Shown here: one piece after another, positions 3,256 through 32,982 of the stretch | Layout: every line of letters begins with the position of its first letter | Position numbering within the stretch: the first letter of the stretch is position 1 | Source of the DNA: a virus | DNA length: 45,608 nt | Virus record (IMG/VR): IMGVR_UViG_3300043446_004445 | Span: 1 to 45,608 of that record | Strand: one strand, 5' to 3' | Notes under the pieces: generated by a model | Database searches by the model: none | What the model was told of the DNA's origin: nothing | What the model saw: the letters and a program-made list of their open reading frames with translations, nothing else | Made by a program: the position numbers and the translations under genes

Positions 3256-3498
3256 ATGACTCCACCCGACGAGGCTTCCCCAGCCACACCTAACCCCTGG
3301 AACCAAGCCGTTCCAGCACTCCTTACCGCTTCGGTCCTTGGCCTAGGCGGTCTTTTCATGCAAGTCGCCAAGCTTGACCAATCCGTTAGCACTGTTGCCG
3401 CAGATATTCAAGAACTCAAAAACGACAGCAAAGAACGCCTAACTGATCTAGAAAGCCGCGTTCGCCAAATCGAAGTCCGCATCGCCAACACAAAATGA
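3256..3498 (+). CDS. Small membrane-anchored coiled-coil protein, lysis-region candidate
   Basis: This 80-residue protein has a Pro-rich N-terminus, one hydrophobic segment at about residues 19-37 (VPALLTASVLGLGGLFMQV) and a heptad-like charged tail (about 40-78) ending in IRIANTK-like sequence. One transmembrane helix followed by a coiled coil, just upstream of the endolysin region, fits a holin accessory or spanin-like protein. No lipobox is visible. The next gene overlaps its stop by four bases. Confidence 0.6.
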   Translation: MTPPDEASPATPNPWNQAVPALLTASVLGLGGLFMQVAKLDQSVSTVAADIQELKNDSKERLTDLESRVRQIEVRIANTK

Positions 3499-3680
3499 GC
3501 ATCGTCCACTCCACCAACTACGAAGGCGGCTACGCACTGGAACAACTAGAAAACGAACGCGGCGAAATTTACTACCGCGCCTGCAAAAACAGCATTTGCC
3601 GCTACGCCGAAGACGAATACATTGCCCGCATGTACCTCGAAGGCATGGGCTGGAACTCTACGCAGCCTCCGATTGATTGA
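3495..3680 (+). CDS. Hypothetical protein, 61 aa
   Basis: The ATG overlaps the upstream TGA (ATGA), so this gene is translationally coupled to the membrane/coiled-coil gene. The 61-residue product is acidic, with YYRACKNSICRYAEDEYIARMYLEG in which two Cys are spaced five residues apart. It resembles no family I can name. Its last 23 bases overlap the 3' end of the convergent HNH gene. Confidence 0.6.
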   Translation: MSIVHSTNYEGGYALEQLENERGEIYYRACKNSICRYAEDEYIARMYLEGMGWNSTQPPID

Positions 3681-3984
3681 TCCAGTAATCAATCTCCTGC
3701 TCTAACCTGGCATCCCAAAACTCCTGCGATCTAAACCACTCCCGCCAATCCGAACTAGCTTTCCTCACATTGCACGACAAACACGCTGGAACCATATTTT
3801 TCGGATGTGTGTGCCCACCTTTACTTTTAGCAATGACGTGATCAAGCGTCGCAGACTTACCTAAATCACAATGGCAATACGCACACCTGTTACGCCAGCG
3901 CCAAATAATTTCTTGCCTAAACCTTAAACGCGCCTCTTTTTTGTTTAAGTATTCGCCATCCTCGATGTGATGGTCCATACCCAC
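3658..3984 (-). CDS. HNH endonuclease, small
   Basis: This 108-residue protein carries a complete HNH/zinc-ribbon core: CAYC (residues about 34-37), then LDHVIAKSKGGHTHPKNMVPACLSCNVRK, with DH, the Asn of KNM and the second CxxC. Small free-standing HNH proteins act as homing or packaging nucleases. It is the only minus-strand gene between the tail-fibre and endolysin genes, its 3' end overlaps the convergent gene, and it is more AT-rich than its neighbours. These points suggest a mobile insertion. No intron borders are evident, because the flanking genes are intact. Confidence 0.88.
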   Translation of the reverse strand: MGMDHHIEDGEYLNKKEARLRFRQEIIWRWRNRCAYCHCDLGKSATLDHVIAKSKGGHTHPKNMVPACLSCNVRKASSDWREWFRSQEFWDARLEQEIDYWINQSEAA

Positions 3985-4077: not shown

Positions 4078-4218
4078 ATGGATCCCGCCACTACTGCTGT
4101 TATTGCGATTGCAATCGCCGCAATCTCTGAAATTCTTTCGTTGTATCCCGGCATCAGAGCCAACGGCATCGTGCAAGCCCTCCTGATGCTGGCACGCACT
4201 GCCTTCCCAAAGCGCTAA
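4078..4218 (+). CDS. Small hydrophobic holin-like protein, 46 aa
   Basis: ATG 4078 opens 46 codons to TAA 4216-4218. Residues about 5-22 form one hydrophobic helix (TTAVIAIAIAAISEILSL); residues 30-39 form a second, shorter hydrophobic stretch; the tail is basic (RTAFPKR). Similar short proteins beginning MDPAT occur in cyanophages. Position just before the endolysin suggests a holin or antiholin, but this is inference. The last codons hold a canonical -1 slippery heptamer followed by a hairpin, so a longer product is likely. The 93 bases upstream hold a small hairpin (3998-4019) and no recognised promoter. Confidence 0.7.
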   Translation: MDPATTAVIAIAIAAISEILSLYPGIRANGIVQALLMLARTAFPKR

Positions 4219-4248
4219 TTGCTGATCCAGCCCTGCTCGCGGATCAGC
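4206..4248 (+). promoter_or_regulatory. Candidate programmed -1 frameshift signal
   Basis: The heptamer CCCAAAG occupies 4206-4212 in the X XXY YYZ phase of the 46-aa gene (TTC CCA AAG). The zero-frame TAA follows two codons later, at 4216. After an 8-base spacer, a perfect 8-bp stem begins: GCTGATCC (4221-4228), a 12-base loop, GGATCAGC (4241-4248). The -1 frame stays open for 57 codons. Slippery site, spacer and hairpin are seen directly; frameshifting is inferred. The phage uses the near-identical CCCAAAA heptamer in its tail chaperone gene, which makes the reading more credible. Confidence 0.6.
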
Positions 4249-4385
4249 CGTTACCGCCAAAACCGGTTGTCGTTAATAAACCCATCAACGACGCACTACA
4301 AACCGGAGACAGCCGCCTCCTAGGTGGCGCCATGAGCATCCACGCCCCCTGGTCCGATGGCAACAAACCAGATCCGTCTACTTGA
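4212..4385 (+). CDS. -1 frame extension of the holin-like protein
   Basis: From the slippery site the -1 frame encodes 57 residues before TGA at 4383-4385, giving a 102-residue fusion with the 46-aa gene. The extension is hydrophilic and Pro-rich (LPPKPVVVNKPIND, then HAPWSDGNKPDP). Its codons favour C-ending forms as in neighbouring genes. No ATG, GTG or TTG starts this frame near its beginning; the only internal ATG (4332) would give 17 residues. It overlaps the endolysin start by 29 bases. It would add a soluble domain to the membrane helix. The alternative is a non-coding frame open by chance. Confidence 0.5.
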   Translation, partial: ALIADPALLADQPLPPKPVVVNKPINDALQTGDSRLLGGAMSIHAPWSDGNKPDPST

Positions 4386-5484
4386 TCTGTTCCGTTACTA
4401 CAAAAGTCTGCCCCACCAAATGGCAGCCATCACCGAGCTGGAACACATCATCAACAAGGCCAACCCCCATATCCTTAGCCGCGATCAGGCCTGGTTCAAA
4501 ACTTGGAGCGTTGCCGGCAAACAAAGCCGCTTCCCCAACACCTGGGAAGGCGTGCTTGAAGCTGCCCGTGTCGCTGGAGCTAAATTCCCCGAACTGGTTT
4601 CTGCCCAATGGGCACTGGAATCCGGTTACGGAAAATTTGTCTCCGGCCGCAACAATTTCTTCGGTCTAAAAGGTGACGGCACCGCCACAAACACCCAAGA
4701 ATTTATTAACAACCAGTGGATCACAGTCACAGCATCATTCATTGACTTTCCCGACGTACTGTCCTGCGTCATCTACCTCGTAGATCGCTGGTACAAGGAC
4801 TACAAAACCTACAAAGGCTGCAACAACGCAACTACACGCGAAGAAGCAGCCAAGTGGTTAGTAAAAGAAAACTACGCCACCGATCCAGATTACGCCAACA
4901 AACTAATTGCTTTAATGAACCAGCACACTGGAACAAACCCTGCAGTGCGACCCCAACAAAAAGTTCTCAAAGTCGCCTACGAATACCAGCTTGGAGCTGA
5001 CGACGGCCCAACAGGTTACCGCCAGTGTTTTAGTTCCAGCTGCGCGATGGTTGCCCGCTACTACGGCAAGATCTCCGGCGACTACGAATACAACAAAATC
5101 CGCGCCCGCTTTGGCGACACCACCGACCCCAAAGCCCAAATCGCCGCCCTCAAAGTACTGGGACTAACCGCCACCTTCGAAATGGATGGCACAGTCGAGG
5201 CCCTCGAAAACGAAATCAACGAAGGCCACCCCGTCCCAGTCGGCTGGCTCCACAAAGGACTTGTCAGCTCACCTACCGGCACCGGCCACTGGAGCGTAAT
5301 TATCGGCTACACCCCCAGCCACTTCATCCATAACGACCCTTTTGGCGAAGCCAACCTCTCAGTCGGCGGCTACGTCAGCAACAAAGGCGGCGCCGGAATT
5401 GCTTATTCCCGAAAAAACTGGCTGCCTCGCTGGCTGATTGACGGTGACGACACCGGCTGGTTCATGAAAATCCGCGCAAAGTAA
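4357..5484 (+). CDS. Endolysin: glucosaminidase plus C39-like peptidase
   Basis: This 375-residue protein has two enzyme domains. Residues about 60-190 resemble the endo-beta-N-acetylglucosaminidase (lysozyme-like) fold: VSAQWALESGYGK with E88 as probable catalytic acid, then NNFFGLKGDG and a YATDPDYANKL end. Residues about 205-370 resemble papain-fold C39-type peptidases: YRQCFSSSCAMV (C224 or C229 as nucleophile), GHWSVIIGY with H311, and HNDPFGE with D327. The combination would cut both glycan and peptide bonds of cyanobacterial peptidoglycan. There is no signal peptide, so export would need the holin encoded just upstream. The ATG at 4357 gives the full first domain. Confidence 0.88.
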   Translation: MATNQIRLLDLFRYYKSLPHQMAAITELEHIINKANPHILSRDQAWFKTWSVAGKQSRFPNTWEGVLEAARVAGAKFPELVSAQWALESGYGKFVSGRNNFFGLKGDGTATNTQEFINNQWITVTASFIDFPDVLSCVIYLVDRWYKDYKTYKGCNNATTREEAAKWLVKENYATDPDYANKLIALMNQHTGTNPAVRPQQKVLKVAYEYQLGADDGPTGYRQCFSSSCAMVARYYGKISGDYEYNKIRARFGDTTDPKAQIAALKVLGLTATFEMDGTVEALENEINEGHPVPVGWLHKGLVSSPTGTGHWSVIIGYTPSHFIHNDPFGEANLSVGGYVSNKGGAGIAYSRKNWLPRWLIDGDDTGWFMKIRAK

Positions 5485-32413: not shown

Positions 32414-32455
32414 ATTTCTAATCCGCTACAGTAGTCCCATACCCCTGTGACTGGT

Positions 32456-32797
32456 ATGCCCGTCTCCGTCCGTGCCATTGACCGCCTGCGCAAGGCAGCC
32501 AACCTAGAACCCATTAAAAAAGTAGTAGAGCTGTCCGACGGCAGCAAGTTTGAAATGTGGGTGGCGCCTCTGACCATGGCCGAGCGTGAACGCGCTCAAA
32601 AACAAGCCAAGTCTGACGACGCTAACGCTTTCGCCCTTCAACTGCTGATCGCCAAAGCCCTCGACGAGACTGGCGCCAAGCTGTTCAACGCCGGCGAACT
32701 TGACGTCCTCAAAAACGAAGTCAAGGACAAAGACCTCCAGACTTTGATGCTGGCAATCCTGACCGACGACGCCGAGCCCATCGACCCAAAATCCTGA
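32456..32797 (+). CDS. Tail assembly chaperone, short form (gpG-like)
   Basis: ATG 32456 gives 113 residues; a GTG at 32447 would add three. The product is a charged helical protein (VVELSDGSKFEMWVAPLTMAERERAQKQAK, FALQLLIAKALDETGAKLF, KDKDLQTLMLAIL). It lies between tail tube and tape measure, the position of the lambda G/GT chaperones. It ends IDPKS at a slippery CCCAAAA; a -1 shift yields the long form. It would coat the tape measure before tube assembly. Confidence 0.85.
   Translation: MPVSVRAIDRLRKAANLEPIKKVVELSDGSKFEMWVAPLTMAERERAQKQAKSDDANAFALQLLIAKALDETGAKLFNAGELDVLKNEVKDKDLQTLMLAILTDDAEPIDPKS
32785..32791 (+). promoter_or_regulatory. -1 frameshift site CCCAAAA of the tail chaperone
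   Basis: GAC CCA AAA TCC TGA is the zero-frame end. CCCAAAA is in the X XXY YYZ phase, so tandem slippage gives CCC AAA ATC CTG and the -1 frame is open to 32982. The site, the stop right after it, and the location match the conserved frameshift of siphovirus tail chaperones. Confidence 0.88.
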
Positions 32798-32982
32798 GCG
32801 CCGAACTCCGTAAGGACAACTGGCTCATGCTTCAATTTGGCGTTGCCAAAGAGTTGGGCCTAACCCTTACAGAAGTTCGGACCGCAATGACCGCCGAGGA
32901 ATTACTCGGCTGGAGCGCCTACTTCCAAATCCTCAACGAGGACCAAGAAAAGGAGCTAGAGAAAGCCCGCCGCCGCCGCTAA
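32791..32982 (+). CDS. Tail assembly chaperone, frameshift extension (gpT-like)
   Basis: This -1 frame adds 63 residues to the first 112 of the short chaperone, giving a 175-residue product. Its sequence (ELRKDNWLMLQFGVAKELGL, then MTAEELLGWSAYFQILNEDQEKELEKARRRR) resembles the T part of GT-type chaperones, in which LTAEEL..W.AY..L is common. There is no independent start at its beginning. In lambda the T part recruits tail-tube protein to the tape measure. Confidence 0.85.
   Translation: MLSAELRKDNWLMLQFGVAKELGLTLTEVRTAMTAEELLGWSAYFQILNEDQEKELEKARRRR

Follow-up and report, generated by a model that had tools for sequence, protein, structure and literature searches.

Why should the gene for a 46-residue membrane protein, lying just upstream of an endolysin gene, end in a slippery heptamer, with an open −1 frame running on past its stop codon? 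The locus was found in a viral DNA of 45,608 nucleotides (IMG/VR record IMGVR_UViG_3300043446_004445), the whole of which we call the window. A preliminary description of this DNA had read the locus as a probable programmed −1 frameshift extending a holin-like protein. The elements on which it relied are all in place in the window: a heptamer in X XXY YYZ phase, a stop codon close behind it, an 8-nt spacer and an exact 8-bp hairpin. The features that concern us here are as follows.

3256 to 3498, plus strand: 80-aa protein in the upstream part of the putative lysis cassette, having a single hydrophobic segment and a tail that resembles a coiled coil
4078 to 4218, plus strand: zero-frame ORF, a 46-aa small membrane protein and putative holin (MDPATTAVIAIAIAAISEILSLYPGIRANGIVQALLMLARTAFPKR, then the stop), with one hydrophobic segment, a basic C-terminus and homologues (phrog_22542/15106 type) beside cyanophage endolysin genes
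4206 to 4212, plus strand: slippery heptamer C_CCA_AAG in zero-frame phase, 10 nt 5' of the stop, conserved in 137 of 138 non-redundant loci
4213 to 4218, plus strand: one sense codon, CGC (4213-4215), then the zero-frame stop TAA (4216-4218); the −10 spacing recurs in 134 of 138 loci
4212 to 4385, plus strand: −1 frame extension of 57 codons and TGA (4383-4385), ALIADPALLADQPLPPKPVVVNKPINDALQTGDSRLLGGAMSIHAPWSDGNKPDPST and then the stop, under purifying selection
4078 to 4385, plus strand: predicted frameshift product of 102 aa, from 45 zero-frame and 57 −1 codons
4221 to 4248, plus strand: 8-bp hairpin, a possible stimulator, lineage-specific (−17.9 kcal/mol, z = −3.35)
4357 to 5484, plus strand: endolysin with glucosaminidase and C39-like peptidase domains (phrog_10051, E 1.1e-140; PF01832; PF13529)
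32785 to 32791, plus strand: C_CCA_AAA heptamer of a tail assembly chaperone-like gene, with TCC TGA directly behind it

The zero-frame ORF ends TTC CCA AAG CGC TAA. The −1 frame was described as having 57 sense codons and no start of its own, and this is confirmed: no ATG, GTG or TTG lies upstream of its most conserved part, the C-terminal motif LQTGxSRLLGGAMSIxxPWSD. The extension overlaps the start of the endolysin gene (ATG at 4357) by 29 nt, placing that ATG inside its last codons. Synechococcus siphophages, S-CBS1 among them, have the endolysins nearest to this one. An HNH endonuclease gene (3658-3984, minus strand) sits between a 61-aa ORF and the putative holin gene and interrupts the lysis cassette.

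Is the displacement of the two frames peculiar to this contig? Related loci were fetched through the endolysin (80), through the extension (80) and through the extensions of distant isolates (about 90), and were classed with profile HMMs of the two domains. A first round of classification yielded 111 raw loci with both domains; the extension is in the −1 frame in every one, and neither an in-frame fusion nor a +1 arrangement was found among them. A second round added 73 further non-redundant loci with the −1 relation and one, S-CRES1, with a separate downstream gene. Removal of duplicates and of the S-CBS2/S-CRES1 lineage left 138 non-redundant loci, mostly IMG/VR contigs, and the extension lies in the −1 frame in all of them. 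An in-phase X_XXY_YYZ heptamer is present in 137, exactly 10 nt before the zero-frame stop in 134, and comes in four types: AAAAAAG (99 loci), CCCAAAG (31), GGGAAAG (5) and CCCAAAA (2). The sole exception, L139, reads GAAAAAG and differs from L138 by a single base. Two findings in relatives had been named in advance as evidence against frameshifting: stops in the −1 frame and broken heptamers. No stop interrupts the −1 frame in the 138 extension-bearing loci, other relatives having lost the extension whole, mostly with the heptamer, and the heptamer is broken in L139 only. A search of genome contigs for relatives returned a single one, L166, binned as Verrucomicrobiota, which is probably a phage contig inside a MAG.

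The arrangement is also present in the Synechococcus isolates S-CBS1 (gp22/gp23), S-CBS3 (gp21/gp22), KBS-S-2A (CPKG_00007) and S-EIV1. Public gene models of the extension look wrong: S-CBS1 gp23, S-CBS3 gp22 and S-EIV1 AHV82131.1 (loci L081, L168 and L169, with KBS-S-2A as L167) are annotated from internal TTG, ATG or GTG codons, and the KBS-S-2A extension is absent from the public annotation.

Is the extension coding sequence? For the −1 frame, pN/pS comes to 0.287 in the first clade (592 pairs) and 0.201 in the S-CBS1/KBS-S-2A clade (837 pairs), whereas the two shifted frames give 1.38 and 1.52 in the former and 1.48 and 2.08 in the latter. The other two plus-strand frames of the extension region contain stops in 64 of 68 and 68 of 68 loci. 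Such a substitution pattern is that of a sequence translated in the −1 frame and held under purifying selection. It also bears on the simplest alternative, that the −1 frame is open by chance, or that the frame break comes from a sequencing error or the decay of a pseudogene. An open frame of 57 codons is indeed not very rare by chance, but the same break recurs in 138 non-redundant loci, among them those of four isolates that were sequenced independently, and strong purifying selection in the −1 frame is accompanied by stops in the others. The comparative data refute a chance ORF or pseudogene, and we attach practically no weight to this explanation.

The extension varies from about 57 to 95 residues across loci. 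A structure model of a longer form consists of a helix and a disordered tail, at low confidence (pLDDT 68, pTM 0.31), and the window extension lacks most of the modelled helix. A search of PDB sequences gave no significant relatives, and the S-CRES1 extension, used as a query against viral contigs, gave no match.

Does the heptamer persist only because of the amino acids it encodes? Phe-Pro-Lys is written TTC CCA AAR in 33 of 33 extension-bearing loci, where window codon usage predicts about 12%. Among relatives that lack the extension, 14 of 40 use this spelling and 26 use other synonymous codons, in most cases TTC CCC, TTT CCC, TTC CCG or TTC CCT; the heptamer has mostly been lost there through synonymous changes. 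The class with a lysine pair (xKK) reads xxA AAA AAG in 33 of 34 loci. The synonymous constraint anticipated in the preliminary description is thus found at the heptamer. Near-copies and recombination are likely among these loci, so raw counts are not independent events, and a test on independent pairs is the fair one. An endolysin tree with 103 rows requires no fewer than 11 gains or losses of the extension; among the loci that carry it, the heptamer type changes 12 times. Heptamer and extension go together in 7.2 of the 11 independent pairs, and in no pair do they run counter to each other (median p = 0.016). Judged by these comparisons, the heptamer is conserved beyond amino-acid need and selected as DNA. 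CCCAAAG at −10 is still kept in nine non-redundant loci without the extension, where Phe-Pro-Lys is conserved.

In L048, L060, L068, L073, L075 and L078, which also lack the extension, the −1 frame following the holin-like stop is that of the endolysin and stays open for about 385 codons. Some of these loci keep CCCAAAG at −13; L048 and L060 have lost the heptamer. Since the endolysin lies in the −1 frame and the heptamer is kept in some cases, a frameshift fusion of holin and endolysin is conceivable.

Could a −1 product be made without any slip of the ribosome? The RNA polymerase might slip instead, at an A-run, and 99 of the 138 loci do carry A6-A7 runs followed by G. Yet at the CCCAAAG, CCCAAAA and GGGAAAG sites (38 of 138, the window among them) no run exceeds 4, and the extension is still in the −1 frame. 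Runs of six or seven A are also shorter than those generally known to slip efficiently. Because the CCC and GGG sites offer no long homopolymer, transcriptional slippage is rejected there, and we hold it to be extremely improbable as the source of the −1 product.

Ribosomes might also terminate at the zero-frame stop and reinitiate there or close by, perhaps on the CTG in C-TGA, which would dispense with frameshifting and make the extension a separate protein. The −1 codon that straddles the stop is CTG in 100 of 138 loci and TTG in 7. Moreover, the two domains are separate genes in S-CBS2, through a TAGTG stop-start overlap, and in S-CRES1, through an ATG of the second gene's own, so both can exist as separate proteins. 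In 31 of the 138 loci, the window included, the straddling codon is instead CTA, GTA or TTA, at which initiation is not expected. No ATG, GTG or TTG occurs within 30 nt of the stop in 108 loci, and the start-like codon found in the remaining 30 is not conserved. Lacking a plausible start at the stop in these 31 loci and within 30 nt in those 108, reinitiation is not the common route, and we reject it as the main one. It would also leave unexplained why the heptamer is kept in 137 loci while switching among four slippery types; we consider it very improbable. An independent start for the downstream segment had been singled out as a further sign against frameshifting; none is conserved in the heptamer-bearing loci, and separate starts are confined to the S-CBS2/S-CRES1 lineage. 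That lineage has no heptamer. Its members are distant relatives that score only modestly against the extension profile (30 and 21 bits), but the gene pair is syntenic; the occurrence of the two domains as syntenic separate genes suggests that they act together.

How much does the downstream RNA structure contribute? The arms of the window hairpin match exactly (GCTGATCC at 4221-4228 and GGATCAGC at 4241-4248), and the spacer between heptamer and hairpin occupies 4213-4220; the folding z-score of this region was computed against dinucleotide shuffles. The hairpin is strong in the window and in some CCCAAAG loci and weak in other CCCAAAG loci. Mean folding z is −1.05 for the CCCAAAR sites but 0.12 for the AAAAAAG sites, the latter having no downstream structure on average, and a consensus fold of 62 aligned loci of the S-CBS1/KBS-S-2A type returned no structure. 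The hairpin is real in the window, but across the family it does not belong to the cassette. The preliminary description had expected heptamer, hairpin and −1 frame to be conserved in homologues; the heptamer and the −1 frame are, and the hairpin is not. A_AAA_AAG is a very shift-prone site in E. coli (PMC5009743), and the scarcity of structure at AAAAAAG sites would fit such a property, if the E. coli behavior holds in the hosts of these phages.

A clade without the long extension (L018, L055, L058, L063, L064, L069, L077, L079) keeps CCCAAAG at −10 and carries a strong hairpin, GCGCCGCT...AGCGGCGC, directly after the zero-frame stop. In some of its loci the hairpin reads CCGCCGCC...GGCGGCG, a compensatory change. 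The short −1 ORF (26 codons) that accompanies the strong hairpin in the L018/L055/L063 clade shows no codon-position bias, and we do not claim it as coding.

With the −1 frame retained in all 138 loci, the heptamer in 137 and purifying selection on the extension, the comparisons support the reading of the locus as a programmed frameshift. On this sequence evidence we are highly confident that the 46-aa membrane-protein gene is subject to programmed −1 ribosomal frameshifting, a judgment that does not extend to any role as a holin. Most ribosomes would stop at 4218 and release the short protein. Some would slip from CCA-AAG to CCC-AAA at 4206-4212 and go on to make the 102-aa protein, which would join the membrane segment and basic tail of the short form to a soluble C-terminal domain bearing the conserved motif. 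Frameshifting would in this way fix the proportion in which the two forms are made at the endolysin locus. A literature search found no measurement of frameshift efficiency for C_CCA_AAG.

A second frameshift site in the same genome offers a comparison. The tail assembly chaperone-like gene at 32447-32797 matches phrog_344 (E 9.5e-5), and its 64-codon −1 extension (to 32980) matches tail-protein families and precedes the tape measure gene (33036). By its sequence, 32447-32980 is an apparent canonical −1 frameshift gene in the standard G/GT arrangement, and it shares both heptamer class and heptamer-codon-stop spacing with the membrane-protein gene. In the lambda-type chaperone G/GT (Xu et al., as treated in PMC10885494), a −1 slip on a heptamer just before the stop likewise gives a C-terminally extended isoform, but the protein extended here is an unrelated membrane protein at a lysis locus. 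G/GT genes sit between those for the major tail protein and the tape measure; the 46-aa gene lies beside an endolysin gene and has no chaperone homology match, and we do not count it as a G/GT gene. The mechanism is a familiar one, well known for phage tail genes, in an unfamiliar class of gene.

What precedents exist outside the tail genes? E. coli dnaX (PMC5009743) uses the A_AAA_AAG heptamer seen in 99 of our 138 loci. The dnaX shift shortens the product, and an upstream Shine-Dalgarno-like element and a hairpin are known, whereas here the shift lengthens the protein and there is no conserved downstream structure. Lambda S (PMC9841429) resembles the present case in that one gene supplies two forms of a small membrane lysis protein, the holin and antiholin S105 and S107. 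In lambda, alternative start codons give the two forms different N-termini; here a frameshift is predicted to give them different C-termini, which places the locus outside the dual-start holin/antiholin class. Frameshifts near lysis genes have likewise been predicted in Streptomyces BI2 phages (PMC9671017), but these are GeneMarkS predictions only, for genes near holins, and no comparative test is reported there. Lysin genes are stated to be able to frameshift (PMC10885494). The preliminary description knew of no established frameshift in a holin-type gene, and our search of the literature on frameshifting with holin, antiholin or cyanophage, mainly outside the subscription journals, found none either. 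Should the fused product be confirmed, no earlier programmed frameshift in a putative holin gene would, within the literature searched, be as well supported, and a single gene would be seen to supply both forms of a lysis protein in a new way. The arrangement is widespread among phages of a globally abundant phototroph, with 138 non-redundant loci and four cultured isolates, and it opens the part played by recoding in lysis timing to direct test.

Is the 46-aa protein a holin? Its hydropathy reaches 2.21 over 17 residues, between an acidic N-end and a basic C-end (judged by hydropathy alone). These properties point to one membrane segment and, by the positive-inside rule, suggest a cytoplasmic C-terminus, where the extension would lie too. 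In most siphophage loci the gene is directly upstream of the endolysin gene, a position that makes a role in lysis likely. Its N-terminal domain is homologous to phrog_22542 and phrog_15106 (S-CBS1 gp22, S-CBP1_0039), for which no function is listed; the S-CBP1 type has an in-frame tail of about 20 aa in place of the extension. Holin identity and a timing function, suggested by gene position and anatomy, are plausible but unproven.

A real frameshift need not act on a holin: the protein may instead be, for instance, a membrane anchor, an accessory protein or an assembly factor that happens to be encoded beside the endolysin, and we give this nearly an even chance. Searches of Pfam, PHROGs and NCBIfam matched the 46-aa protein to no lysis family or known holin. 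The S-EIV1 cassette adjoins the endolysin gene on the opposite strand, the S-CBS2 and S-CRES1 gene pair is sited away from it, and the 80-aa neighbor is itself a candidate for a second holin or hemolysin-like protein: in position and shape it resembles S-CBS1 gp21, this S-CBS1 counterpart giving a weak match to the hemolysin-type phrog_937 (E 0.0023). Against these points, in most cyanosiphovirus loci seen, the gene immediately 5' of the endolysin encodes a small protein with a single hydrophobic segment, and homologues occur near a lysozyme gene in the podoviruses S-CBP1, S-SRP01 and DSL-LC07. In our working model the short form would act as the holin, and the long form, made in minor amounts, would be its partner, either setting the timing or engaging the endolysin. 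We tentatively propose, as a possibility we would sooner doubt than rely on, that frameshift efficiency sets how much holin is made relative to a partner or antiholin derived from the holin itself, the soluble tail of which would bind either the holin or the endolysin, and that this version swaps in evolution with the two-gene version of S-CBS2 and S-CRES1.

The start region of the KBS-S-2A endolysin (L167, 2697-3428) resembles that of the window endolysin (4357-5484), being RLLDLFRYYKSLPHQMAAI-like, and the rest of the KBS-S-2A enzyme looks unlike the glucosaminidase type. The start region common to the two is possibly a partner-binding domain.
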